Source: Gemmatimonadota bacterium (GTDB taxonomy: Bacteria > ARS69). Taken from it: DNA of 21,270 nucleotides. The stretch's first letter is position 1. Each line of letters begins with the position of its first letter. The DNA is taken from assembly GCA_030747075.1 (NCBI GenBank), contig JASLLL010000036.1, forward strand, positions 1-21,270, given 5' to 3'. The position numbers and the translations under genes are program-made. The notes beneath the pieces are model-generated. The model had not been told where the DNA came from. It saw nothing but the letters and a program-made list of their open reading frames with translations, and did not search any database. This document shows, in pieces, positions 1,185 through 16,200 of the stretch.

Positions 1185-2933
1185 GTGATCGCCATCCGAG
1201 CGTTGCTGTTGGCCGGGGCGCTGGCGGGGCTTGCGGACGGGGTGTCCCTGCTGTTCGAGAATCCGCGCTCGTTCGAAGGGTGGGGGGCGCGTGCGAGCTT
1301 CCTGGCGGCGTCCACGGTTCTCGTCGCGATTCCTGGCCTGGTGGCAGGCTGGGTGGTCGGACTGCCGGGTTGCCTTGGTTCCCGGAACCGGTGGGGAGGC
1401 CTTGCGCAGCGTCCGCGACTCCTCCTGGGTATCGCGGCGGCGCTGGGCCTCTTCCTCTGGGCGGGGGTCCGCGTGCATGTCCGGTTTCACTTCGGCGAAC
1501 CGCTTCTTTCTTCGACCGGCATTCGGTCGTCGGTACTGGTGGCGCTCGCTTCCGGGGTTGCCGCGTGGCTCCTGACTCGCGTCACCGGGAGCGCGATGGA
1601 GCGCGCGATCCGGTCGCGGGCCTTGCTGCCGATTGGCGGGTTCGCTCTTGCGATCCTGGCGTGGGTCGCGATGCCTGGCCCATCCCGCACGGAACCGCCG
1701 CCGCCGGGGCCCGGCGCGGAACCGGGTGCGCGCAGTGTCCTCCTGATCACGCTCGACACCTTCCGGGCGGACCGACTTTCGTGCGCCGGATATCCGCACC
1801 CGACGACGCCCGTGCTGGATCGGCTGGCACGCTCCGGTGCTCACTGGCAGACCGCCCGCGTGCCGATTCCCCTGACGAACCCCAGCCATGCGTCACTCTT
1901 CACCGGACTGGCGCCACCGGAACACGGCGTGCGGAATAACGGAATCGCTCTCCCGGCGAACATTCCGGCGCTGATTCCCGAGATGGCGGCTCGAGGCTGG
2001 GCGACGGGCGCTTTCGTCAGCGGGATTCCCCTGAAGGCCGGGCTCTCCGGCCTTGCGCGTGGTTTCAGTCACTACGACGACGCCTTCTCGCTTCTGGAGA
2101 AGATCCACCCCATGCTGACTTCGCTGGCCATCGTGCGAGCGGCCAATCGTCTGTTCCCGGTGGACCTCATCGAACGGCGGGCCAGGGACACGGCCCGTGC
2201 CGCGCGGGAGTGGATGCGGGAGGCGCCCGATCCGTTCATCGCGTGGGTTCACCTGTTCGACGCCCACTCCCCGTATGATCCGCCCCGACTGCTTCGAGAT
2301 CGCCTGGCGCTTCCTGACGGACGCCCCTGGCCGCACCCCGACTACGATGCGGAGCTTCGGGAAATCGATCGGCAGCTTGCGGGCGTCCTGCGCGACTTCG
2401 AGAGGCTTGCATCGGGGAGGGGGCTGGTGGTCGTGGTTGGGGATCATGGGGAGGGACTGGGCGATCACGGTGACCTCACGCACGGAAAGGAACTGCACGC
2501 GGAGGATCTGCGCGTGCCGCTGATCTGGAACGATGCGCGATCCGCCGCCTCGGGTCGCGTTCTCGCCGCCACCGTGTCCACGCTCGATGTGGGGGCAGCC
2601 ATCCTCCGGTCGGCACGGCCAGCCGGGGGGGACACCATGCTCCCCGAGTCGAGCGAGGCGGAGGTTCTGGCGTGGACCTTCGCCCCGGAGGGGCGGCATG
2701 ACCGCATGGCAATCGTGCATCCGGACGGCCGGAAGCTGATTCGCAATCTCGACACCGGCGAAGAGCAAGCGTTCGATCTGAAGGAGGATCCGGGCGAAGC
2801 TCGCCCCCTCGATCCGATCGACCCCCGGTGGGAGGAGTTGCGACTCGCCTCTCCCGGGGATCCTGCGGGGCACGCCTCCGACCTCGACCCGGAGACCGTC
2901 CGGAAGCTAAGGTCTCTCGGCTATCTTCACTAG
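1185..2933 (+). CDS. Membrane-anchored sulfatase-fold hydrolase/transferase with Thr in the nucleophile position
   Basis: The 582-residue protein has five N-terminal hydrophobic helices (about res 4-23, 38-62, 78-98, 115-133, 147-163), a Pro-rich linker, then an alkaline-phosphatase/sulfatase-superfamily domain facing the periplasm or exterior. Visible motifs are LITLDTFRADRL (187-198, metal Asp191), LTNPSHASLFTG (230-241), HLFDAHSPYDPP (356-367), VVGDHGEGLGDHG (417-429, metal Asp420/His421) and the family-typical C-terminal tail LRSLGYLH. In sulfatases the second motif is Cys-X-Pro-Ser-Arg; here it is Thr-Asn-Pro-Ser-His, so the formylglycine Cys and the Arg are both replaced. Thr is the nucleophile in LtaS and EptA, which also have five helices plus this domain. 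I infer a phospho-group transferase or hydrolase acting on lipid or glycan rather than a true sulfatase. The GTG start has GAGG at 1176-1179, 5 nt upstream. It is the first gene of the operon. Confidence 0.85.
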   Translation: MIAIRALLLAGALAGLADGVSLLFENPRSFEGWGARASFLAASTVLVAIPGLVAGWVVGLPGCLGSRNRWGGLAQRPRLLLGIAAALGLFLWAGVRVHVRFHFGEPLLSSTGIRSSVLVALASGVAAWLLTRVTGSAMERAIRSRALLPIGGFALAILAWVAMPGPSRTEPPPPGPGAEPGARSVLLITLDTFRADRLSCAGYPHPTTPVLDRLARSGAHWQTARVPIPLTNPSHASLFTGLAPPEHGVRNNGIALPANIPALIPEMAARGWATGAFVSGIPLKAGLSGLARGFSHYDDAFSLLEKIHPMLTSLAIVRAANRLFPVDLIERRARDTARAAREWMREAPDPFIAWVHLFDAHSPYDPPRLLRDRLALPDGRPWPHPDYDAELREIDRQLAGVLRDFERLASGRGLVVVVGDHGEGLGDHGDLTHGKELHAEDLRVPLIWNDARSAASGRVLAATVSTLDVGAAILRSARPAGGDTMLPESSEAEVLAWTFAPEGRHDRMAIVHPDGRKLIRNLDTGEEQAFDLKEDPGEARPLDPIDPRWEELRLASPGDPAGHASDLDPETVRKLRSLGYLH

Positions 2934-2942
2934 GGAGCGCGA

Positions 2943-4070
2943 ATGCGGGTTCTCCTCATTTCATCCGTGGAGCATCAGTCGGGGAGTGCCTTGCGCTTCC
3001 GGGGGATCGCGGGGGCGCTGGCCGCTCGTGGCCATGAAGTGCACCTTCTCGAACCCGCGTCGGCCGCGTCCGCACCCGAGACTCCCGCGGGCGTTCGGAG
3101 GCATCCGTGCGCGCGTCTGAGTGTGCCCCCTGCGCTGCAGGCGCCGTTGTGGCTTCTCGCGGGGTTCCTTGCGGTCGCACGCGTGCGTCCGGATGCGGTC
3201 TACGCGCTCAAGGCCCTCCCGAACTCCTGGCTTCCGGCGCGACTTGCTGCGTGGGGCGGCGCGAAGGCGCTGGTGGATCTCGACGACCTCGACGAGGCGT
3301 TCTACCCGCCCGGTCCTGTCCGGCAGCTTCTTGCCATGCTCTTTCGGAATGCGGTGCGACGGGCGGATCTGGTCACCGTTCACAACGAGGCTATGCGATC
3401 ACGGGTGGACGCCCTCCGCGAGGGGCGAACTCCGGCGCTCTTTGTGGATCAGGGGATTGATGTGGAGCGTTTTGCGCGGAGCGTAGCCGACGGGGCGCCG
3501 GGACTTCGCGAAGAGCTGGGTCTGGGCGACGGTCCGGTGCTGCTGTACGCAGGGCACCTGGGACCGGCCTCGGATCTGGAAGCGATCCTTCCGGCGCTGG
3601 CTCCCGTGGCGGCGCAGCGCCCGGATGTGCGCCTGTTGGTCCTGGGCGACGGCCGCGCCCGCATCCGTCTGGAGAAGGCGGCAGCGCGGCATCTGCCAGC
3701 GGGTTTCGCGGTGTTCGCAGGGGGAACTTCTCACCGGGAGGCGCCGCGGTATTTCGCGCTCGCCTCGGTGGCGCTCAACTACCTGCGCGACGCGGAGGCG
3801 AACCGGTTTCGGGCGTCCATCAAGGTCCGGGAGGCGCTGGCCGCCGGAGTTCCCGTGGTGACTTCCAGGACTGCGGACACGGAACGGTTTGCCGAGTTCG
3901 TTCATTTCCCGGACGGGGCGACTCCGGAAGCCTTTGCGGAAGCGGTCCTTCTCGAACTGGACTCGCCCGGAAGAGAGCGCGCGCGCCTCGGAGCGGAGCA
4001 TCTTGCGAGCAAGGGGACATTCGCCGCAGCCGCAGCCCCTCTTGCGAAGGCACTGGAGGCGTGGCGATGA
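2943..4070 (+). CDS. GT4-family glycosyltransferase
   Basis: This 375-residue cytoplasmic enzyme has the GT-B fold: an N-terminal acceptor domain beginning MRVLLISSVEHQSGSALRFR with the usual GHEVHLLEP strand, and a C-terminal donor domain starting near res 196 (GDGPVLLYAGHLGPASDLEA). The donor site region RASIKVREALAAGVPVV (290-306) stands where GT4 enzymes carry the EX7E element; the Glu at 297 fits its second acidic position. FVDQGIDVERF (167-177) is the standard linker strand. It transfers a nucleotide-activated sugar with retention; donor and acceptor are not predictable. AGGGAG (2932-2936) precedes the ATG by 6 nt. It follows the sulfatase-fold gene by 9 nt and overlaps the next gene by an ATGA. 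Confidence 0.88.
   Translation: MRVLLISSVEHQSGSALRFRGIAGALAARGHEVHLLEPASAASAPETPAGVRRHPCARLSVPPALQAPLWLLAGFLAVARVRPDAVYALKALPNSWLPARLAAWGGAKALVDLDDLDEAFYPPGPVRQLLAMLFRNAVRRADLVTVHNEAMRSRVDALREGRTPALFVDQGIDVERFARSVADGAPGLREELGLGDGPVLLYAGHLGPASDLEAILPALAPVAAQRPDVRLLVLGDGRARIRLEKAAARHLPAGFAVFAGGTSHREAPRYFALASVALNYLRDAEANRFRASIKVREALAAGVPVVTSRTADTERFAEFVHFPDGATPEAFAEAVLLELDSPGRERARLGAEHLASKGTFAAAAAPLAKALEAWR
4055..4059 (+). promoter_or_regulatory. Shine-Dalgarno GGAGG deciding the start at 4067
   Basis: GGAGG lies 7 nt before ATG 4067 but only 1 nt before the in-frame GTG 4061. It therefore supports the ATG, which also gives the ATGA overlap seen at several other junctions of this operon. Confidence 0.6.
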
Positions 4071-5050
4071 ACGATCGGCCGGCCGTCTCCGTGGTGGTGC
4101 CCGTCTATGACAATGCAGCCACGCTCGCTCGCCTCCTCCGGGCCTGTCGTCAGCAGGACCACCCGGGTGGCGTGGAGGTGATCGTGGTGGATGACGGGTC
4201 GCGCGACGACTCAGCCGGGATTGCGGAGGAGGCGGGAGTGCGCGTGATCCGGCAGGAAAATCGCGGCCCCGCCGCCGCCAGAAACCGCGGATGGAGAGAA
4301 GCGACCGCGGACATCATTCTCTTCACGGATGCGGACTGCGTGCCGCGAACCGACTGGGCGCGTCTCCTTGCGGAAGGAGTGGGAGGCGGCTTTGCGGCTG
4401 CGGGCGGAACTTACGGGATTGTGAATCCGGAGTCCGCGCTGGCCCGATCGGTTCATGCGGAGATCGTCTGGCGGCACTCCGGGTTCCCGGAAGAGATCGA
4501 CTTTGCGGGGTCATTCAATCTGGGCGTGAAGAGGGCGGCGATGGAAGAAGTCGGCGGGTTTGACGAGAGCTTTCCGCTGCCGAGCGGCGAGGACAATGAC
4601 CTGTCGTACAGGCTTCGGGATGCGGGGCACCGCATTCGATTCGTGCGGGAAGCGGTCGTCGATCATCACCACCCGGATTCCCTGGGTCGTTACCTTCGGG
4701 AACAGGCGCGGCATGGCGAATGGCGGGTCGTGCTGTACGCATCGCATCCTCGACGCGCAAGAGGGGATCGCTATGCCGGACCCGCGGACCTGGCCGCCCC
4801 CCCGGTGGCTGCGCTCTGCGCCGTCTTCGCGTTCGCGGCACCCTTTGCTCATCGGGCCTCCGCCGTGGCGCTGCTGTTGCTGGCGGTGCTTGCGCTCCTC
4901 CAGTGGCGGGCGTGCGCGGGGGCATCGCGAAGAGAGGGTTCGCCCGGTGCGGGGACGCTGCTGGCTCTCGGCATTGTGCGGGCCTTCGCCCGCGCATGGG
5001 GAATGACCCGCGGTGTGGTGCGTGTTCTCTTCAGCAGGAGAAACGCATGA
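4067..5050 (+). CDS. GT2-family glycosyltransferase with C-terminal membrane helices
   Basis: The 327-residue protein is an inverting GT-A enzyme. Motifs in order: VSVVVPVYDNAATL (7-20), VVDDGSRDDS (40-49), RGPAAARNRG (66-75), FTDADCVP (86-93, the DXD metal site), AGSFNLGVKR (147-156), GGFDESF (163-169) and GEDNDLSYRL (174-183, the acidic acceptor-side base region), then VVDHHHPDS. Two hydrophobic helices (about 243-262 and 264-283) and a basic tail follow, so it probably sits on the inner face of the membrane and acts on a lipid-linked acceptor. The start is ATG 4067, not GTG 4061, on ribosome-binding-site spacing. It overlaps both neighbours by ATGA. The sugar is unknown. Confidence 0.88.
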   Translation: MNDRPAVSVVVPVYDNAATLARLLRACRQQDHPGGVEVIVVDDGSRDDSAGIAEEAGVRVIRQENRGPAAARNRGWREATADIILFTDADCVPRTDWARLLAEGVGGGFAAAGGTYGIVNPESALARSVHAEIVWRHSGFPEEIDFAGSFNLGVKRAAMEEVGGFDESFPLPSGEDNDLSYRLRDAGHRIRFVREAVVDHHHPDSLGRYLREQARHGEWRVVLYASHPRRARGDRYAGPADLAAPPVAALCAVFAFAAPFAHRASAVALLLLAVLALLQWRACAGASRREGSPGAGTLLALGIVRAFARAWGMTRGVVRVLFSRRNA

Positions 5051-5763
5051 GAGTGCTGGCCATTGTCCCGGCGTTCAACGAAGAGGGAACCGTGGGGGGC
5101 GTGGTGCGGGAACTCCTGGCGCGTTGCGACGCGGATGTGGTCGTCGTGAACGACGGATCGACCGACGGGACTTCCGCCGAAGCTCGACGCGCGGGGGCGC
5201 GGGTCCTGGATCTTCCGCTGAATCTCGGAATCGGCGGGGCCGTGCAGGCGGGGTTCGTCATGGCGCTTCGCGAAGGATACGATGTGGCCGTGCAGGTGGA
5301 TGGGGACGGGCAGCACGATCCTTCCGGAATCGACGCACTGCTCGCCCCGATCGCAGCGGGAGAGGCCGACTTCGTGCTGGGTTCGCGATACGCCCAACCG
5401 GGGGACTACCGTGCGCCTATCGCACGAAGGCTTGGCATGGTAGTTTTCTCGGCGGCCGTTTCGGCCATGACCGGTCGGCGGCTCAGGGACACCACCTCGG
5501 GATTTCGCGCGTCGGGGCGGGAGGTCCTGGCCTACTGTGCGGAACATTACCCGCGCGATTATCCGGAAGTGGAGGCGCTGCTTCTTCTGTCGAGGGCCGG
5601 GTTCCGTATTGCGGAAGTCCCGTGTCCTTTCCGGGAGAGAACGGAGGGGCGCTCTTCCATCACGGGGGGGAAGGCCGCCTACTACATGGTCAAGGTTCTC
5701 CTGGCGCTGTTCGTCGGTCTCTTCCGGGGAACGCCCGAGCGATCGACCGGGGAGGATGCATGA
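5047..5763 (+). CDS. DPM1-like GT2 glycosyltransferase (polyprenyl-phosphate sugar synthase type)
   Basis: This 238-residue single-domain GT2 resembles dolichyl/polyprenyl-phosphate mannose synthases. Motifs: IVPAFNEEGTVGGVV (6-20), VVNDGSTDGT (33-42), LNLGIGGAVQAGF (58-70), VQVDGDGQHDP (82-92, metal site), LGSRYAQPGDY (111-121) and DTTSGFRAS (148-156), ending with EVPCPFRERTEGRSSI. It has no clear transmembrane helix beyond a hydrophobic stretch at about 213-227, so membrane contact may need a partner; the next gene, a small DUF2304 membrane protein, is translationally coupled. It would move a sugar from a nucleotide donor to polyprenyl phosphate for use outside. The frame is open further upstream, but AGGAG (5036-5040) 6 nt before ATG 5047 and the ATGA overlap fix the start. 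Confidence 0.87.
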   Translation: MRVLAIVPAFNEEGTVGGVVRELLARCDADVVVVNDGSTDGTSAEARRAGARVLDLPLNLGIGGAVQAGFVMALREGYDVAVQVDGDGQHDPSGIDALLAPIAAGEADFVLGSRYAQPGDYRAPIARRLGMVVFSAAVSAMTGRRLRDTTSGFRASGREVLAYCAEHYPRDYPEVEALLLLSRAGFRIAEVPCPFRERTEGRSSITGGKAAYYMVKVLLALFVGLFRGTPERSTGEDA

Positions 5764-6125
5764 TGGACCGAATCCAGCTTCTCTCGATTCTGGGCAGCGC
5801 TCTGCTCCTGGCCGTGGTCCTGGAACTGGTCCGCTCGCGAAAACTGAAGGAGGAGTACTCCCTCCTTTGGATTCTCACCGGGTCGGTTCTTCTGGGGCTT
5901 TCGATCTGGCGGGGACTTCTGGACCGGATTGCGCATCTCGCGGGCATTCATTACCCGCCGTCCGCGCTGTTTCTCGTGGGCTTCGGATTCTTCCTTCTAA
6001 TCTTTCTGCACTATTCGATTGTCCTGTCCGACCTCTCCGAGAGGACGAAGCGGTTGACGCGTGAGATTGCGCTTCTGCGCGAGAAGGAAGCGCGAGACGG
6101 GCAGAGTGGAGACACCGCGGAGTGA
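5760..6125 (+). CDS. Small DUF2304-type membrane protein
   Basis: The 121-residue protein has three hydrophobic helices (about 4-23, 35-50 and 67-90) followed by a charged, probably coiled tail (SERTKRLTREIALLREKE, 93-110). This layout, with the short LKEEYSLLWILTG segment (29-41), matches DUF2304 proteins, which are often encoded next to DPM1-like GT2 genes. Here it overlaps such a gene by ATGA, and the following GT-C gene by GTGA. No catalytic motif is visible. I infer an anchoring or regulatory partner of the upstream GT2, comparable in role to the small subunits of eukaryotic DPM synthase but not shown to be homologous. The start could be ATG 5760 or ATG 5763; GGAGG (5751-5755) is better spaced for 5763. 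Confidence 0.8.
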   Translation: MMDRIQLLSILGSALLLAVVLELVRSRKLKEEYSLLWILTGSVLLGLSIWRGLLDRIAHLAGIHYPPSALFLVGFGFFLLIFLHYSIVLSDLSERTKRLTREIALLREKEARDGQSGDTAE

Positions 6126-8269
6126 GCGGCACTCCGGCCTCCGCCAGCGGGGAGCGCGCGTGGCGGCGATGGTCCGCGCCGATCCTCCTCGGGGCGCTGG
6201 CGCTTCGGCTGCTCTGGCCGCTGGCGGACCCTCCGGCCCGGCTGTCCTGGTCGAACGGGATCTACACGGACCCCGCGACCATGGTGCACGCGGCCAGGAA
6301 TGCCGCTCTTTTCGGCGAGTGGATCCGCGACTACAACCGTGACCTCTTCGTCTTCCCGCTGGCGAATCTGCTGACCTTCCTCGTGTATTCGGTATTCGGC
6401 CCGGGACGCCTTCCCGCACAGGTGCTGTCGGCGATTCTGGGGACCATCACGGTGGGGGCGGTCGGGTGGGCGCTTCGGCGGGCTGCCGGGCCGAGGGCTG
6501 CGGTCATCGGTGTGCTGATTGGGGCGGTCTCATTCTGGCAGCTCCAGTTCTCCCGGATTCCGGTGGGCGAGAATGCGGCGGTCGCTCTCATGGCTCTGGC
6601 CGGAGTGGCGGTCCTGGGGCGAAAGAAGCGGGCGCTCTTTCTTGCGGGACTCCTGTCATCCGCGGCCGTGCTCTTTGGAAAGTACCACGCGATCGGGTTG
6701 CTCCCCGCTCTGGCGCTTCTGGTGACTCTTCGGTCGCGCTCCGTCCGCGCTCCGGCGATTCTCGCCTCAGGAGGAGTGGTGGCTCTCGCGGCGTGGGTGG
6801 TGGCGATCTGGCTGCCGCAACACGAGCACATCGCCGGGCATGTGGCGCGTCAGTCTACGGGGCTCCACGGTCCGATGCCCTTTGCCGAGTCAATCCGCGA
6901 GGGGTTGGGCGAGTTCCTCAACACCCTCCGCAGGGCGTGGCTCTTCTACCGGATGCCGGTGGAGGCCACGCTCGGCGGGCTGTTCGCTTTCTGGACGCTG
7001 GGGAATACCGCAGCACGCCGCCGCCGCACGGAAGACGGGACGGCGCTCTTCGCGTTCTGGTTTCTGGGGATGTGGTTCTACTACGCGCTCCTCCCGTACA
7101 AGGCCCCCCGGTATTTCGTCCTCCTGACGCCCGCGCTCGTGGGAGCGGCCGCAATCCAGATCGAGATCATGCTGCGGTCCCGCGACATCCGGCTCCGTGC
7201 ACCCTCCACCTGGGACACGCTGGCCCCGCTGGCGCTCTGGATCTACTGTTTTTCGTTCGGGATGCTGGACACGCTGAAACACTACGCCTCCATGAGCCTG
7301 GAGTACCTGACGATCCCCCCGTCGCGAATCACGCAGGAGGTCTTCCAGAGCGTTGTCGGGGTTTTCCAGCGCATCGACACCTTCCATCAGGGGCTGGCGT
7401 GGGCAGGCGGGATATCGATCGTGCTGTTTCTTTTGGCTCTCTGGAGTCCGGAGATCCTGACGCGGGTGCTGCGTCGATCCGATCGGGTGCCCGGGCGCGT
7501 CCTGAACCGGGCGGCGCGCGTGGCGGTGGGGCTGGCGGTTGCGGTGGGGTTGGGGCAGTACGCATGGTGGGCGACGCATCGCACCACTTTCATCCATGAT
7601 GTCATGGAGACCATGCCGGCCATGATCGGCGATGATGCGGTCGTCCTCGGGCCCATGGCCCCTCTTCTGTTTCAGGACACGAAATGCCAAATCCTGCCCT
7701 ATTTCGGGCCGATGGGGGAGAGGGGCATGCTGAGTCGGCATGGGGTGACCCATGTGCTGGTCTGCGGCTCCGGCGATGAGAGGAATCTGGACGATCGCTA
7801 CCCGCGTCTGCGTGACGAACTGGCGATGGTCCAGTCGTGGCCGGTCTCGACGCTGTTTTCGAGTACTCTGGCGCTGTACAGGCTGCCGGCCGCCGTGGAG
7901 GGCGTGCCGATTCACGATTACCGGCCGACCCTCTTCGAGGAGGGAGCCGCTGCGGTGGTGGCCGAGAAATGGGATGCGGCTCTTGAGAAGTTCGCGCAAT
8001 ATCGCGCATCAGGTGGCGAGGATCTTCCCGAGATCTTCGCCATGAAGGCGATCTGCCTGTGGAATCTGGGAGATCTGGACAAGGCGGGGGAACTCCTGGA
8101 AGAAGCCATCCGGCTTCGTCCCAAGGACCCTCTTGGCTACCAGAATCTGGGGGCACTGGCGTTGAAGCGGGGGGATCGGTCGCGGGCGTTGGAACTGTGG
8201 ATGTCTGCGCTCCGGCTCGACCGCGAGAACAAGGACCTTCAGGAGAAGGTCGTGGAGTTGTCCCGATGA
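6122..8269 (+). CDS. GT-C membrane glycosyltransferase (PMT/ArnT-like) with C-terminal TPR domain
   Basis: The 715-residue polytopic protein has about ten or more hydrophobic helices between res 18 and about 520, then a C-terminal TPR segment (about 604-705) of roughly three repeats, including AMKAICLWNLGDLDKAGELL and YQNLGALALKRGDRSRALEL. The first extracytoplasmic loop (WSNGIYTDPATMVHAARNAA, 43-62) sits where GT39/GT83 enzymes carry their catalytic Asp, here Asp50. LQFSRIPVGENAAV (141-154) matches the usual second conserved region of this superfamily. Members transfer sugars from polyprenyl-phosphate donors on the outer face. Such donors could be made by the DPM-like GT2 enzymes on both sides. 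The GTG start overlaps the upstream stop (GTGA). The acceptor may be protein, lipid or glycan. Confidence 0.82.
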   Translation: MSGTPASASGERAWRRWSAPILLGALALRLLWPLADPPARLSWSNGIYTDPATMVHAARNAALFGEWIRDYNRDLFVFPLANLLTFLVYSVFGPGRLPAQVLSAILGTITVGAVGWALRRAAGPRAAVIGVLIGAVSFWQLQFSRIPVGENAAVALMALAGVAVLGRKKRALFLAGLLSSAAVLFGKYHAIGLLPALALLVTLRSRSVRAPAILASGGVVALAAWVVAIWLPQHEHIAGHVARQSTGLHGPMPFAESIREGLGEFLNTLRRAWLFYRMPVEATLGGLFAFWTLGNTAARRRRTEDGTALFAFWFLGMWFYYALLPYKAPRYFVLLTPALVGAAAIQIEIMLRSRDIRLRAPSTWDTLAPLALWIYCFSFGMLDTLKHYASMSLEYLTIPPSRITQEVFQSVVGVFQRIDTFHQGLAWAGGISIVLFLLALWSPEILTRVLRRSDRVPGRVLNRAARVAVGLAVAVGLGQYAWWATHRTTFIHDVMETMPAMIGDDAVVLGPMAPLLFQDTKCQILPYFGPMGERGMLSRHGVTHVLVCGSGDERNLDDRYPRLRDELAMVQSWPVSTLFSSTLALYRLPAAVEGVPIHDYRPTLFEEGAAAVVAEKWDAALEKFAQYRASGGEDLPEIFAMKAICLWNLGDLDKAGELLEEAIRLRPKDPLGYQNLGALALKRGDRSRALELWMSALRLDRENKDLQEKVVELSR

Positions 8270-10017: not shown

Positions 10018-10977
10018 GTGAGTGAGAAGCCCCAGGTTTCCATTATCATCCCCGCCTTCAACGAGGAGGGGAATGTCGCGGAACTCTTCGAGCGGATCGC
10101 GGAGGGGTTTCGGCTGGCCGGGGTCACCGGGGAGACCGTTTTTGTAGACGACGGCAGTACCGACTCCACCTGGGCTCGCGTGGAGGAAGCCTGCAAAGCG
10201 CATCCCGGCATCGTCCCCGTCCGGCACCGTCGGAATCTGGGATTGAGCGAAGCGCTGAACACCGGCTTTCGCAATGTCAGTGGGGATCATGTGATCTTCC
10301 TGCCGGCGGACCTCCAGTCGGATCCGGCCGAGGACATTCCCACGCTGCACAAAGCTCTCTGCGACGACCACGATGTCGTGGTCGGCTGGCGCATCGGGCG
10401 TCGCGAGGGGAAGCTCTTCGTTTCGCTGATCTACAACTTTCTCTGTCGCCATCTCTTCGGGCTGGACGCCCACGATCTCAACTGGATCAAGGGATTCCGG
10501 CGAGAAGTCATCCAGGAGATCCACCTTCGCTCCGACTGGCATCGGTACATCGTGATCCTCGCCGCGCAGCGTGGCTTCCGCGTGAAGGAGGTCCGGACGC
10601 CCTATCATCCGCGGCACTCCGGCCGGTCCAAGTTCGGACGGAAGCGAATCATGCGCGGCCTTCTGGATCTTCTGGTGGTCAAGTTTGAGTTGTCGTTTAC
10701 CGACAAACCGATGCTTCTGTTTGGATCGTGGGGGCTTGGGTTCGTGGGGCTTGGAGCGGGAATCGGGCTGGCCCTTCTGGCATTGCGGGTGTGGACAGGC
10801 GTGGGGAATCGGCCGCTTCTCTTTCTGGTGATGCTTCTTGTTCTCGTGGGTGTGCAACTTCTGGGACTCGGGTTTGTGGCGGAGCAGATTGCGTCGCTCC
10901 GGGAGTCCGTTCGCGAAAGACGACGGGCGGAAGATTCCGATCGTGCGGAGGCTGCGGGGGATTCGTGGAAACACTGA
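10018..10977 (+). CDS. GtrB/ArnC-like GT2 with two C-terminal membrane helices
   Basis: This 319-residue protein combines a DPM-type GT2 catalytic domain with two C-terminal hydrophobic helices (about 233-258 and 266-290) and a charged tail, the layout of GtrB, ArnC and related undecaprenyl-phosphate glycosyltransferases. Motifs: VSIIIPAFNEEGNV (7-20), VDDGSTDST (43-51), HRRNLGLSEALNTGF (70-84), FLPADLQSDP (94-103), HDLNWIKGFRREV (152-164) and RHSGRSKFGRKR (199-210). In the metal-site segment the first Asp of DXD is Pro (PAD rather than DAD), a variant worth noting, with Asp98 retained. It starts with GTG; GAGGAGG (10002-10008) lies 9 nt upstream. It should make a polyprenyl-phosphate-linked sugar for use by the GT-C enzymes. 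Confidence 0.87.
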   Translation: MSEKPQVSIIIPAFNEEGNVAELFERIAEGFRLAGVTGETVFVDDGSTDSTWARVEEACKAHPGIVPVRHRRNLGLSEALNTGFRNVSGDHVIFLPADLQSDPAEDIPTLHKALCDDHDVVVGWRIGRREGKLFVSLIYNFLCRHLFGLDAHDLNWIKGFRREVIQEIHLRSDWHRYIVILAAQRGFRVKEVRTPYHPRHSGRSKFGRKRIMRGLLDLLVVKFELSFTDKPMLLFGSWGLGFVGLGAGIGLALLALRVWTGVGNRPLLFLVMLLVLVGVQLLGLGFVAEQIASLRESVRERRRAEDSDRAEAAGDSWKH

Positions 10978-11714
10978 TCGTCATTCCCACCTACAACGAA
11001 AGGGAGAACCTCGGCGACATCGTCCCGAAGGTGCTCGCGCTGGATCCGGGCATCTCCGTCCTCGTTGTGGATGACAACTCTCCCGACGGCACTGGAGACA
11101 TCGCGGAGGAACTCGCGGCTTCGACAGGACGCGTCCATGTTCTCCACCGGGCGGGCAAGATGGGGCTGGGGTCCGCCTATCGAGCCGGGTTCCGATGGGC
11201 ACTGGAGGCCACGGACGCGCAGTACATCTTCGAGATGGACGCGGATTTCTCCCACGATCCCTCCTTCGTCCCGGAGATGCTCGAGATCGCGAAAAGTGGG
11301 GACGCGGATCTTGTGGTGGGGTCGAGGTATCTGGCCGGAGCGAATGTGGTCAACTGGCCGATCCGGCGTCTCATTCTATCGTACACCGCCAATGTCTACG
11401 CGCGGGTCATCACCGGGCTGCCGCTCCGCGATTCGACGGGGGGGTTCAAGTGTTTCCGGCGCAAGGTGCTGGAGGCGATCGATCTGGGGTCCGTCCGGTC
11501 GGACGGATACGGATTCCAGATCGAGATGAACTACCATTCGTGGAAAGCCGGGTTCCGGATCCACGAGGTTCCGATCGTTTTTGTGGACCGGCACTCAGGC
11601 ACATCCAAGATGCACCGTCGAATCATTTACGAGGCGTTCGGGTTGGTATGGAAGCTACGGTTTCAGTCTCTGTGCAGGCGCGGGCGGCACGGCAGGACGG
11701 ACCGGGCAGCGTGA
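10965..11714 (+). CDS. Polyprenol-phosphate mannose synthase-like GT2
   Basis: The 249-residue enzyme closely follows the bacterial Ppm1/DPM1 pattern: LIVIPTYNERENLGDIV (4-20), VVDDNSPDGTGDIA (34-47), GKMGLGSAYRAGF (64-76), IFEMDADFSHDP (88-99), VVGSRYLAGANVVNWP (117-132), DSTGGFKCFRRKVLE (156-170), GYGFQIEM (181-188) and the HSGTSKM substrate loop (210-216). The DDNSPDGT and DADFSHDP forms are hallmarks of polyprenol monophosphomannose synthase, so GDP-mannose and polyprenyl phosphate are the likely substrates. It has no transmembrane domain. The GTG start overlaps the preceding stop by 13 nt, the largest overlap in the operon; a purine-rich GGGGGA lies 4 nt upstream and GGAGG 13 nt upstream. 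Its stop overlaps the next start (GTGA). Confidence 0.9.
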   Translation: METLIVIPTYNERENLGDIVPKVLALDPGISVLVVDDNSPDGTGDIAEELAASTGRVHVLHRAGKMGLGSAYRAGFRWALEATDAQYIFEMDADFSHDPSFVPEMLEIAKSGDADLVVGSRYLAGANVVNWPIRRLILSYTANVYARVITGLPLRDSTGGFKCFRRKVLEAIDLGSVRSDGYGFQIEMNYHSWKAGFRIHEVPIVFVDRHSGTSKMHRRIIYEAFGLVWKLRFQSLCRRGRHGRTDRAA

Positions 11715-13765
11715 AGCCTCCGGCGGTCAGTGTCGTCATTGTCAGCTACAACTCAAAGACGGATCTGAACCCATGCCTGCGGGCGCTGGAGGATCCCGGC
11801 AACGGGAGCGTCCGCGAAGTCATCGTGGTGGACAATGCCTCCGACGACGGGACTCCCGACATGGTGGAGTCTCACTTTCCGGGGGTGAGACTGATTCGTC
11901 ATGCCGAGAACCTCGGGTACTCGCGCGGCGTGAATCGGGCGATCCGGGAGGCGGGCGGAGAGTTCGTTCTTGTGCTGAACCCGGATGTGCGCGTGACGCC
12001 CGGTTCGGTGGATGCGCTGGCCGCATTCCTGGAGAGAACACCCGAGGCCGGGATTGCCGGCGGGAAGCTCCTCAACGAGGATGGGTCGCTCCAGCATTCG
12101 TGCCGTACCTTCTATACGCTTCGCACGCTTCTTCATCGACGCACGATCCTCGGGCGCATCTTTCCCGACAGCCGCGTGGTCCGCGATCACCTCATGCTGG
12201 ATTGGGACCATGAGACGATGCGCGATGTCGACTGGATGCTGGGCGCGTGCCTGATGGTGCGCGTGGACGCGATCCGGGAAGTCGGGTGGATGGACGAACG
12301 GTTTTTCATGTACTTCGAGGATGTGGACTGGTGCTATCGAATGAAACAGCAGGGCTGGCGTGTCGTCTATGTTCCTGAAGCGACGATGCACCACATCCAT
12401 CGGCGGGAGAGCGCGTCGGGCGGAGGGTTGAGAAACCGTCGGCTTGTGGCTCACCTGAACAGCATGTTCCGCTTCTTCGACAAGTGGAACACCCGGCTCT
12501 ACTCCCTGCGGCGGAATCGGGATCCCGTGCTGGCGGCGGGGCTTCTCGCGATGGATCTCGTGGCGGTGAATGTGGCGTTCCTCGGAGCATTCCATGCACG
12601 CCGGTTTGTCGGGGCGTATCTGGAGCGTCCCGTGTTCCCGCTGGAGGAGTATGGCGCGTATGCGTTTCTTCTCAATGGGGTCGTCCTTCTCGTGAATGGC
12701 ATTCTCGGGCTCTATCGACACCCGACTTCGCGGAATCTGCTGGACGATGCGTTCGACCTGGCAAGAGGCCTCGCCTTTGCGACGCTGATTCTCATGGCGA
12801 GCACCTTCCTCACGAAGTCCGCGCTCTACAGCCGGTTCATGGTGGCCGCCTTCGTGCCGCAGGCGTTTCTGCTGATGACTCTCGGCCGGTGGGGAGCCGG
12901 GGCGATTTCCGGATCGCTGCGCCGGAGCCGGTTCGACCTGACGCGAGTCGTGGTCCTGGGCGAGAAGGCGGAGGCAGAGAATCTGGCGGAGCGACTCTCT
13001 GCGCGTCCGGAAGCAGGCTACGATGTCGTGGCGGCGCTGGGCGACGGAGCGGGGGAAGGGGAGCCGGGGTTTGCCGACTTCTGGAATCCGGACGGTGTGG
13101 GGCCTCTCATTCGTCGGCACCGGGTGGGAGAAGTGCTGGTGGTGCACCCCACGCTTGCGGACAGCGACCTGGCGCGTCTCATTCTCCTGTTTCGCAGGGA
13201 AGGGGTTCGGGTCCGAGTCGTGTCCGGCGTTGCGGACTTCCTGCCGTCCCGGCTGACGGTGTCGACTCTCGTCGGCCGCCCCGTCGTGGATCTGGGAACG
13301 CTGACCGGCCGCTCCTCGGGGGTCACACTGCGGCGCGTCGAGGATATGGCGCTTGCGATTCCCCTCCTTCTGCTACTGGGGCCGCTGGGCTGGTTTCGCG
13401 CGGCCCGCTCCGGTCGGGAGGGAGATCCCACCTACGGCTACCGGGGTGAGGTCTTCCTGATGCGCCGGGGGCGTACCCGCTTCGATCAGCTTGCCGAGTC
13501 GGTCGGGCATGTATTGCGCGGGAATCTGGCCTTCGTCGGGCCGAGGCCCGTTTCCCCGGAGGAAGTGACCGCCGAGGAGACCCTTCCGGTGCTCTTCGAT
13601 GTCGTGCGTCCGGGAGTGACGGGAGCGTGGCGCACGCATGGCGAGGAGGGACTTTCGCTCAAGGAAGAGGTTTCCCTTTCGCTCTCCAACCTTCAGAATC
13701 AGTCTCCGGTGGAGGATCTGAAGATTCTCCTGAAGACTTTGTGCCGGAGGAACCGGAGTCGATGA
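11711..13765 (+). CDS. GT2 glycosyltransferase fused to a polytopic PGT-like module with degenerate catalytic core
   Basis: A 684-residue fusion. Res 4-260 are a rhamnosyltransferase-type GT2: VSVVIVSYNSKTDLNPC, VVDNASDDGTPD (39-50), NLGYSRGVNRAI (67-78), VLNPDVRV (88-95), MLGACLMVRV (176-185) and FFMYFEDVDWCYR (198-210). Four hydrophobic helices follow (about 274-295, 316-335, 352-370, 376-396), then a Rossmann-like domain (411-510, VVVLGEKAEAENLAERL). The end (540-684) resembles a WbaP/WcaJ-type sugar transferase: RRVEDMALAIPLLLLLGP, HVLRGNLAFVGPRP (600-613) and VRPGVTGAWRTHGEE (632-646). Between RGEVFLMRR and VGPRP the usual FRSM, D-R-T and SLDELPQ elements are missing or altered; the catalytic Asp-Glu becomes Asp-Gln at best (FDQLAES, 591-597). 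Start GTG 11711 gives a GTGA overlap; ATG 11648 is a possible alternative. Its PGT activity is doubtful, its GT2 activity likely. Confidence 0.85.
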   Translation: MKPPAVSVVIVSYNSKTDLNPCLRALEDPGNGSVREVIVVDNASDDGTPDMVESHFPGVRLIRHAENLGYSRGVNRAIREAGGEFVLVLNPDVRVTPGSVDALAAFLERTPEAGIAGGKLLNEDGSLQHSCRTFYTLRTLLHRRTILGRIFPDSRVVRDHLMLDWDHETMRDVDWMLGACLMVRVDAIREVGWMDERFFMYFEDVDWCYRMKQQGWRVVYVPEATMHHIHRRESASGGGLRNRRLVAHLNSMFRFFDKWNTRLYSLRRNRDPVLAAGLLAMDLVAVNVAFLGAFHARRFVGAYLERPVFPLEEYGAYAFLLNGVVLLVNGILGLYRHPTSRNLLDDAFDLARGLAFATLILMASTFLTKSALYSRFMVAAFVPQAFLLMTLGRWGAGAISGSLRRSRFDLTRVVVLGEKAEAENLAERLSARPEAGYDVVAALGDGAGEGEPGFADFWNPDGVGPLIRRHRVGEVLVVHPTLADSDLARLILLFRREGVRVRVVSGVADFLPSRLTVSTLVGRPVVDLGTLTGRSSGVTLRRVEDMALAIPLLLLLGPLGWFRAARSGREGDPTYGYRGEVFLMRRGRTRFDQLAESVGHVLRGNLAFVGPRPVSPEEVTAEETLPVLFDVVRPGVTGAWRTHGEEGLSLKEEVSLSLSNLQNQSPVEDLKILLKTLCRRNRSR

Positions 13766-16200
13766 TCCCAATGCGAAGATTCATCAGAACGCGTGCTTTC
13801 CGTCCGACCCAGACTCTCTTGCCTGCGCTCGGGCTCTTGGTGGCCTTCGCCGCTCCCGGGGTCCTTGCGGAGGAGGTGGGGTGGACGCTCTACCCGCCCA
13901 CCGGTGATGTGGCGGAGATCCTGATCTCGGGAGACACCGCATGGATCGGTGCCGGGGGCGGGGTGATTCAGGCGGACTTGACAGACATCGTGTCGGGTGA
14001 GCTCACGCAGACGCGGATTACCGATGATGACGGGCTGGTCTCGCCGGAGATCACGGCCATGGCCTTCGATGGGCTGGGGAATGTGTGGGTCGGGACGCGG
14101 GATGCCGGGATTTCGATCTTTGATCCTCAGGGTCGTCATCTGCGCAATATCAACTCCTTCGAAGCGCTTTGGAGCGATCTTGTGATCGGGATGTCGTCTG
14201 AAGGGAACCGGATGTTCGTGACCTGCGCCGACGATTACTCGGAGACCGGCACGATCGAGGGGGGCGGGTTTACGGTGATCGAGGTGGAGGGAACCGAGTC
14301 GGGCGGAATCGATATCAGCGTCGTGGGGATCGGTGTGCCGCTGGCTGTATGCCGAGAGGTGCTGGCGCTTCCGGGTGAGACCTGGTTTGGATCGAGCGCA
14401 AACGGTCTCTGGCGACGGGATGAGATCCTCGGTCTGGCGCCGGAAGAGGTGCTGACCACGGATGAAGGACTCCTGTCGGACAATGTGACCGGGCTCGCCC
14501 GGGGGCCGCATCCTGATCTCGGCGGGCAGGAGGTGCTCTGGATTGGAACGGCCATGGGTCTCCAGTACTGGGACGGTGCCGCGCTGGATACGGTCGTCAC
14601 TTTTCAGGATCATCCCGTTCACGATCTGGAGTTTGATGGATCGTCGCTTCATGTCATCGTCGAAGATCCTGCCAGTGTCATGGAGAGAGAGATCTTCTCG
14701 ATGAATCTTCTCTCGTCGCCGTTGACTCCCATTCAGGTGGATGCGGTGGCCTGCCTTCCGGACACCGCATATCTGCCTCGGGAAGTCGCCATGAGCGCCG
14801 CGGGGAACATGGTTCTCGGAACGAAGACTGCGGGTTATTCCGTTCATGACGGGGTGACCTGGGTCTGCCCGCGTCCGCTCGGCCCGCACTCGCCCCAGGT
14901 CGCGGATCTCGCCCTGGGGACGGATGGAACGCTATACTTCGGAACCGGAACGAAGGAACCGCCGAAGAAAGGCCGTGGTGTGGGCCTTTTCAGCGACGGC
15001 ATCTGGGGCGTGCTCTCGCGGCAGGATGGTCTCATTCAGGAACTGATCACCGAAGCGGTCGCGTGGCCCGACGGGACGATCTGGTTTGGTTCCAGCGTCA
15101 GCAAGGATGTGGGAGGGGTCAGTCGCTACTTCCCCGACCAGGGGACTTTCGTGAACTACCACAACACATCCTCGGACCCGAGCCATGTCACGCTCGGGAA
15201 GAATGTCGCGACACTGGAACTGGATGCGGCCGGGAACCTCTGGATTGGATATGGGCAACTCGACGGGGGAGTGACCGTCATCGAGTATCCCAGCCTTTCG
15301 ATAACCAACTACCATGTCGTGGACTTCACGGATGCGGGGAACGACCTCATCACCGATCTGGACTTCGACTCCCGGGGGCGCATGTGGATCACCACGAAGA
15401 ACACGGAGTTGAAGCCGGGGCAGTTGTATGTCTTCGATTTTGGGGGGACCCCCTCCGATCCAACGGACGATCTTCCCGCCACCTCCATGAATGTCGCCAA
15501 CGAGATTCACGATCTCGGAACTGTCCACGACATCGAGATTGACGCTTCGGATCGGATCTGGCTTGCGGGGGAGAAGGGGCTGGTACGGGGCGAGATGCTC
15601 CCTGACTTAGCCTCCGAGGCCCGCGCGGACTGGACGATCATGAATCCCACTTCGTCTCAGTCGGGGGGGCGCAATCCGCTGCCGTACCTCGTGGCCGCGC
15701 TGGACTGGAGCGACAACCTCTGGCTGGGCATGGAGACCTCGGGACTCGTGCGGGTGTCTTCGGATGGGTCGCAGTGGACCTGGTTTGACGAGATCGCGGG
15801 GGAACCGCTTCCTGACCAGGCCGTCACGGGGCTGTACATGGACCTCGCCTCGCGGGAGGTCTATGTGGGAACGAAGTCCTCCGGGATTGCCGTGATGGCC
15901 ATGTCGGTGACGGCGACCGGATCCGGTCGCGTGAGATCGTCGCGCCCGTTTCCGAACCCGTGGCGACTGGAGACCGATGGCGCGCTTCAGTTCCAGGGGA
16001 TTCCCGCCGGGGATGTCGTCACGATGAAGGTGTTTACACCCTCCGGGGAAGTCGTGCAGGTGTTCGAAGAACTCTCCGGCGTGAAGTCCTGGGATGGCAG
16101 AAACCGGAACGGCAGTCGCGTCAAGGCGGGCGTCTACATCATTACTGCCGAAGGGGTGGACGGGGTCGTCTACGAGGGTAAGGTGGCGGTACTCCGATGA
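13762..16200 (+). CDS. Secreted beta-propeller protein with FlgD-like C-terminal module
   Basis: The 812-residue protein begins with basic residues and a hydrophobic stretch, then a likely signal-peptidase site after Ala36 (APGVLA/EEVG). Res 40-710 hold repeated propeller blades of the two-component-regulator (Reg_prop) type: short strands such as GLGNVWVGTRDAGISIFD (about 106-123), VLWIGTAMGLQYWDG, GTIWFGSSVSKD, GNLWIGYGQLDGGV and DNLWLGMETSGLVRV. The last 98 residues (715-812) form a FlgD/FN3-like module with RPFPNPW, MKVFTPSGEVV, WDGRNRNGSRVKAGVYI and a final basic strand, the form used as a C-terminal sorting or anchoring domain in FCB-group secreted proteins. No kinase or enzyme domain is present. 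ATG 13762 overlaps the fusion stop (ATGA); ATG 13771 is an alternative. It may be a surface component or a substrate of the locus (inference). Confidence 0.85.
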   Translation: MIPMRRFIRTRAFRPTQTLLPALGLLVAFAAPGVLAEEVGWTLYPPTGDVAEILISGDTAWIGAGGGVIQADLTDIVSGELTQTRITDDDGLVSPEITAMAFDGLGNVWVGTRDAGISIFDPQGRHLRNINSFEALWSDLVIGMSSEGNRMFVTCADDYSETGTIEGGGFTVIEVEGTESGGIDISVVGIGVPLAVCREVLALPGETWFGSSANGLWRRDEILGLAPEEVLTTDEGLLSDNVTGLARGPHPDLGGQEVLWIGTAMGLQYWDGAALDTVVTFQDHPVHDLEFDGSSLHVIVEDPASVMEREIFSMNLLSSPLTPIQVDAVACLPDTAYLPREVAMSAAGNMVLGTKTAGYSVHDGVTWVCPRPLGPHSPQVADLALGTDGTLYFGTGTKEPPKKGRGVGLFSDGIWGVLSRQDGLIQELITEAVAWPDGTIWFGSSVSKDVGGVSRYFPDQGTFVNYHNTSSDPSHVTLGKNVATLELDAAGNLWIGYGQLDGGVTVIEYPSLSITNYHVVDFTDAGNDLITDLDFDSRGRMWITTKNTELKPGQLYVFDFGGTPSDPTDDLPATSMNVANEIHDLGTVHDIEIDASDRIWLAGEKGLVRGEMLPDLASEARADWTIMNPTSSQSGGRNPLPYLVAALDWSDNLWLGMETSGLVRVSSDGSQWTWFDEIAGEPLPDQAVTGLYMDLASREVYVGTKSSGIAVMAMSVTATGSGRVRSSRPFPNPWRLETDGALQFQGIPAGDVVTMKVFTPSGEVVQVFEELSGVKSWDGRNRNGSRVKAGVYIITAEGVDGVVYEGKVAVLR

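Follow-up and report, generated by a model that had tools for sequence, protein, structure and literature searches.

Gene and domain layout of the locus

The window, i.e. the whole stretch of DNA analyzed here, is one entire contig (G000:C36, 21270 bp) from a genome of 2.67 Mb in 61 contigs, and the gene cluster that it carries may therefore be incomplete. No tandem repeats or tRNAs were found in the 21270-bp window. We refer to loci with homologues by L and a number and to genomes by G and a number, G000 being the genome of the window. PGTs are membrane enzymes that normally initiate bacterial surface sugars, and the gene under study (11711..13765, + strand, GTG start and TGA stop) encodes a 684-aa fusion of a GT2 to a PGT-like module that appears to be catalytically inactive (GT2::pseudo-PGT). 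Its start overlaps the stop of the gene directly upstream (GTGA), and its 3′ end overlaps the gene downstream (ATGA). The upstream gene (10965..11714, +) encodes a 249-aa dolichol-P-mannose-synthase-like (DPM-like) GT2 with a DAD motif and without a fused membrane domain, the best PDB match of which is the dolichol monophosphate mannose synthase 5mlz (E 1.2e-32). The downstream gene (13762..16200, +) encodes a regulator-propeller protein whose end is weakly FlgD-Ig-like, and it is conserved 3′ of the fusion at 18 loci of the window's clade. A multi-pass PMT_2-like protein with a TPR end (6122..8269, +) is a candidate GT-C enzyme, its PMT_2 score of 24.6 lying slightly under the cut-off of 26.1. 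No GtrA-type flippase was identified in the 21270-bp window.

An earlier note on this DNA had described the fusion as a complete GT2, four membrane helices, a Rossmann-like domain and a WbaP/WcaJ-like end that keeps a Pro-containing membrane-inserting segment, VGPRP and PGVTG, and all of these elements could be located by Pfam, in the AlphaFold2 model or by their residues. From the N terminus, and all on the + strand, they are a GT2 domain of GT-A fold (11711..12475, residues 1–255; from Pfam, conserved columns and structure matches), a four-helix membrane bundle (12518..12925, residues 270–405; AlphaFold2 model), a Rossmann-like PF13727 (CoA_binding_3) domain (12941..13240, residues ∼411–510; Pfam and model), a β-hairpin linking the latter to the PGT module (13259..13291, residues 517–527; model), a re-entrant membrane helix (13313..13405, residues 535–565), in which D545 and P558 correspond to D11 and P24 of PglC, a shortened core (13406..13492) and the retained C-terminal half of the PGT (13493..13762). 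This last part contains GHVLRG, VGPRP (residues 609–613), PGVTG (residues 634–638) and DLKI, D669 in DLKI corresponding to PglC D168. The Pfam matches are Glycos_transf_2 at residues 7–123, CoA_binding_3 at 331–504 and Bac_transf at 588–677; the Bac_transf match spans only positions 85–174 of the 179 in the profile, with the first half of the PGT core unmatched, and the PF02397 score of the fusion is 50.6 bits against a curated cut-off of 27.

Predicted structure of the fusion

The full-length AlphaFold2 model (mean pLDDT 89) was computed from 51 aligned sequences. It places the membrane helices at residues 270–303, 311–331, 343–368 and 375–405 and ends in a small α/β PGT part that follows the hairpin and the re-entrant helix. 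Because a structure search with the whole protein was swamped by GT2 domains, the C-terminal residues 262–684 were modelled and searched separately (pLDDT 86). This model matched WbaP 8t53 (Z 16.6), PglC 8g1n (Z 15.5, rmsd 2.8 and 144 residues, covering model residues 270–422, i.e. residues 531–683 of the protein) and PglC 8e37 (Z 15.3), and the next-ranked match was to the Rossmann domain only (Z 10.2). Model confidence is high throughout the PGT module. The structural comparison with PglC and WbaP that had been proposed in the earlier note thus indicates that the module is predicted still to have their fold. The GT2 domain matched 6p61 and WrtF 9oml with Z about 22, and D41, NPD (residues 90–92), DE (195–196) and ED (203–204) are invariant or nearly so in 51 homologues. 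By its GT-A fold and its DxD-like and catalytic-base motifs, the GT2 half of the fusion is active-looking.

The PGT active site is missing

In PglC, D93 and E94 form the dyad, K59, R88 and R111 orient the substrate, and D11, P24 and D168 are residues of the re-entrant helix or its support (PMC12802240); M63 touches the uracil, and a loop (residues 61–81) shuts over the UDP-sugar (PMC12550135). In the window protein, the stretch from D545, the Asp of the membrane helix, to G610, the Gly of VGPRP, measures 65 residues compared with 102–132 in nine canonical PGTs and is thus at least 37 residues shorter than in any canonical PGT measured. The mobile loop, KFRSM (and with it FRSM) and DPRxT are all absent. 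In an ungapped register, the dyad positions are taken by Q593-L594, and D592 lies one residue off; a one-residue gap would align D592-Q593 with D-E, and the Glu is missing in either alignment. D592 was considered as a surviving nucleophile and rejected, being one residue out of register and not conserved in the nearest relatives L007–L009. The report of a shortened core, in which the segment carrying FRSM, D-R-T and SLDELPQ is reduced and the Asp-Glu pair is broken, is therefore borne out. The window protein has an Arg at the R111 position (R612) and possibly one at the R88 position (R588), and the short-core proteins as a family are mostly without either. All four members of the window's own family share the helix sequence A-(E/D)-(S/T)-x-G-H-V-L-R-G and retain the VGPRP Arg.

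A search of 60 relatives yielded three full-length homologues of the same family (59–63% identity) and one partial one. To place the window protein in a wider set, we compared 67 short-core fusions, the window protein included, with nine canonical PGTs. As summarized by PglC numbering, the residues that hold the re-entrant helix are largely kept in the short-core set (D11 in 60/67, P24 in 60/67 and D168 in 57/67), as are the glycines of VG (67/67) and PG (65/67). The active-site residues are nearly gone (D93 in 1/67, E94 in 1/67, K59 in 4/67 and M63 in 0/67), and the substrate-orienting arginines are rare (R88 in 3/67 and R111 in 13/67). A DE string within the expected stretch occurs in none of the 67 short-core fusions compared with all nine canonical PGTs, and the distance from D11 to the Gly of VG is 40–92 residues in the former and 102–132 in the latter. 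The loop that shuts over the UDP-sugar is missing or shortened, and no acidic pair was seen to be conserved throughout the core of the 67 members. The survey of homologues suggested earlier thus found a short core that is common to 67 fusions, none with a DE pair in the expected stretch.

Distribution and stages of core loss

We searched 386 genomes with a profile and scanned GTDB contigs, and in this way collected about 70 fusions; they belong to Eisenbacteria, Krumholzibacteria, Neomarinimicrobiota, Ignavibacteria, Bacteroidota, Balneolota, Rhodothermota, Calditrichota and KSB1; phylum-wise searches around the genomes with active fusions added few further genomes. One homologue (L112:5992-8070) is encoded by a cultured species, Gracilimonas mengyeensis. 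Six fusions (L053, L055, L057, L065, L210, and L211) keep a full core with the dyad. Two are half-lost, namely L078, with D-K at the dyad and a shortened loop, and L191, with D-L at the dyad, FRSQ and a near-full loop, which is the sister of the dyad-bearing L057. Five others (L017, L024, L130, L131, and L135) stop before the PGT part, and at L084, L085, L138, L145, and L119 the GT2 and an intact Lg-PGT are encoded by separate adjacent genes, an arrangement that is likely to be the starting state. All stages are therefore seen, from two genes through active fusions, half-lost dyads and short cores to forms without the PGT part. At L191, the D-L fusion (1492–3669, +) is followed by a small-PGT-like gene (3660–4370, +) with a V-E dyad, each gene of the pair being without a different half of the dyad. 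In the L011/L072–L077 subclade, the C-terminal helix motif is lost as well.

When a tree is built from the GT2-membrane-Rossmann part, full-core members fall in both major clades, and well-supported branches require the core state to have changed at least three times. As far as these sequences indicate, repeated loss would be the simplest direction of change, with regain of the core by recombination standing as a formal alternative. We noted that the PGT part is the fastest-evolving domain in most short-core pairs tested and the slowest in the dyad-bearing pair L053/L055. Many pairs are saturated for dN/dS; pN is lower than pS for the PGT part in every pair tested, and in L076/L080 a pN of 0.42 nears a pS of 0.56. 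This pattern fits a relaxed yet persisting constraint on the PGT module.

Neighbouring genes and initiating enzymes

A DPM-like gene lies directly upstream of 53 of the 68 inactivated or truncated fusions compared with none of the six active ones (Fisher p 2.9e-4), leaving 15 inactivated fusions without such a neighbour; corrected for phylogeny, the association comes down to three independent pairs, and the sign test is not significant. The DPM-like gene is also absent beside all five two-gene GT2 + Lg-PGT pairs. The link between DPM-like adjacency and inactivated fusions is thus suggestive, with few independent contrasts. Further upstream, before the DPM-like gene, loci of the window's clade often encode a YfhO-like protein, some of the Pfam scores lying below the cut-off. 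In the other major clade, RmlD is often found upstream and AccA (acetyl-CoA carboxylase alpha) usually downstream; at most Ignavibacteria/KSB1/Neomarinimicrobiota loci of that kind (e.g. L090, L105, and L129), AccA lies directly 3′ of the fusion. At L071, the fusion is immediately preceded by one 1044-aa ORF (2839–5970, +) that combines a weak YfhO-like part with a DPM-like GT2, which may reflect either a genuine GT-C::DPM fusion or an artefact of read-through. At L166 (2335–4845, −), L167 (2284–4776, −), and L168 (2267–4741, −), the gene directly upstream of the GT2::pseudo-PGT encodes a WecA-like (PF00953)::CoA_binding_3::monoPGT protein in whose monoPGT module YK replaces DE; the equivalent at L174 has an intact dyad. 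A downstream “PGT-like” cluster in Krumholzibacteria proved to be a CapD/PglF-type dehydratase with a CoA_binding_3 stretch and does not show an adjoining active PGT.

The suggestion that the operon lacks an initiating enzyme holds for this contig but not for the genome as a whole, other contigs of which carry three canonical dyad-bearing PGTs and three PF00953 proteins. Further PF02397 matches occur in 24 of the 25 fusion-bearing genomes examined (G005 having a truncated form), and in G332 (L152 and L176; 98% complete) the short-core fusion is the sole PF02397 match. The canonical dyad-bearing PGT at L003 (G000:C3:96455-97096) carries, ahead of KFRSM, an insertion several tens of residues long, and split PF02397 matches of this kind occur in several relatives.

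Discussion

The fusion shares with WbaP and other Lg-PGTs (TIGR03025, PF13727 + PF02397) the four-helix bundle, the PF13727 domain, which in WbaP has been termed a uridine-nucleotide-sensing DUF (PMC10942596), the hairpin, the re-entrant helix and the PGT fold; it differs from them by the added N-terminal GT2 and by being without the dyad, the mobile loop and the UDP-binding residues. Likewise, it resembles the small monotopic PglC in its core fold and in D11, P24 and D168 of the re-entrant helix but is without the D93-E94 pair and FRSM (M63). Bi-PGTs, in which a functional domain is fused to a monoPGT, are a described class, as summarized in PMC10942596 from O'Toole 2021. The window protein is built alike, and its PGT half is by contrast inactive by sequence; with the fusion present and a catalytic monoPGT core absent, it does not qualify as a Bi-PGT, and the six dyad-bearing fusions are the true Bi-PGT-like relatives. 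The literature searched, which excluded the O'Toole 2021 network paper, contained no description that we could find of dyad-less PGT modules or PGT pseudoenzymes.

Judged by sequence conservation and the structural models, the PGT module has the pattern of a pseudoenzyme in that its fold is kept, its catalytic residues are lost and it is conserved as such. We conclude that classical PGT chemistry has very probably been lost in the short-core module, and we favour, as the probable explanation of the fusion, that the non-catalytic module is kept as a platform. The proposal of a dead scaffold in the earlier note is thereby strongly supported by the loss of DE (0/67 against 9/9), the retained helix-holding residues and the PglC/WbaP fold.

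A single contig could by itself suggest that a frameshift or a collapsed assembly had deleted the core, a probability that is now negligible: the frame is open throughout, L007, L008, and L009 show this short core in separate assemblies, as do dozens of unrelated assemblies, and sequencing error, which had been named as a possible cause, is excluded because these relatives share it. The other possibility raised with the dead scaffold, that the module is a new catalytic variant whose rearranged active site transfers phosphosugars or some other group, is very improbable. The conserved helix of the window's family, with E/D596 and H600, and the retained Arg of VGPRP would leave room for a private new chemistry in that family, but no acidic pair in the core is conserved over the 67 members, the uracil-contacting Met is absent from all of them, and the UDP-sugar loop is missing or shortened.

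It is rather more conceivable, if still fairly unlikely, that the module is a decaying relic and that the GT2 with its membrane bundle is the sole functional part. The rapid evolution of the PGT part, the near-equality of pN and pS in L076/L080, the five proteins that end before it and the subclade without the C-terminal helix motif would all fit such decay; however, purifying selection continues, the fold and the helix-holding residues are kept in about 85–90% of 67 divergent members, and the module is modelled with high confidence. It is also unlikely that the chassis hetero-dimerizes with an active initiator, be it a canonical Lg-PGT or a WecA-like fusion, and so couples the first and second sugars. 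Lg-PGTs dimerize via a hairpin, which in WbaP is domain-swapped in the dimer (PMC10942596), and the predicted hairpin of the fusion (residues 517–527) sits at this position; at L166–L168 the adjoining gene joins a WecA-like enzyme to a further PGT module without the dyad, and nearly all fusion-bearing genomes have additional PF02397 matches. Against this, G332 has no other PF02397 match at 98% completeness, and a DPM-like gene rather than a PGT adjoins most inactivated fusions.

Returning to the module as a non-catalytic platform, we propose that the GT2 is carried on a large-PGT chassis composed of the four-helix bundle, the PF13727 domain and the monotopic PGT module and that the pseudo-PGT is likely to act as a membrane-interface and dimerization platform holding the GT2 at polyprenyl-linked acceptors. 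A plausible, putative role of the module is to offer the membrane lipid to the GT2. PglC R88 and R145 bind UndP in simulation (PMC10519829), and neither is conserved in most of the short-core set, which weakens the case for a specific lipid-phosphate-binding role. A tentative further step is that lipid activation, formerly provided by the PGT, now comes from the adjacent DPM-like enzyme, which would make a polyprenyl-P-sugar; the pseudo-PGT side would bind or present this lipid, the GT2 would add the next sugar, and the GT-C enzyme (PMT_2-like here and YfhO-like in relatives) would use the product after flipping. GT-A/GT-C pairs of the YfhO or PMT_2 type act via C55-P-sugar, as in the CsbB/GtcA/YfhO systems (PMC8035078); the window resembles these in having DPM-like GT-A and PMT_2-like GT-C genes nearby, as its relatives often do with YfhO-like ones, and differs in the extra GT2::pseudo-PGT directly 3′ of the DPM-like gene.

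More doubtful still is the generalization that there is a widespread class of pseudo-PGTs in which an Und-PP two-step route (PGT, GT2) was rewired to an Und-P route (DPM-like synthase, GT2). If true, the rewired route would supply lipid-monophosphate-linked oligosaccharides to GT-C enzymes, and the pseudo-PGT would be a polyprenyl-phosphate-sugar-presenting domain. The family ties a dead form of the PGT to a putative polyprenyl-P-sugar synthase, and this link is directly testable. Further, the natural series from two genes through active, half-dead and dead-core fusions to domain loss offers a means to probe what the chassis does beyond catalysis. Short-core proteins pass the PF02397 cut-off and may be labelled as initiating sugar transferases; for many uncultured phyla, this would lead to misleading pathway reconstructions. 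The DE pair together with FRSM provides a simple test that separates real initiators from pseudo-PGTs.
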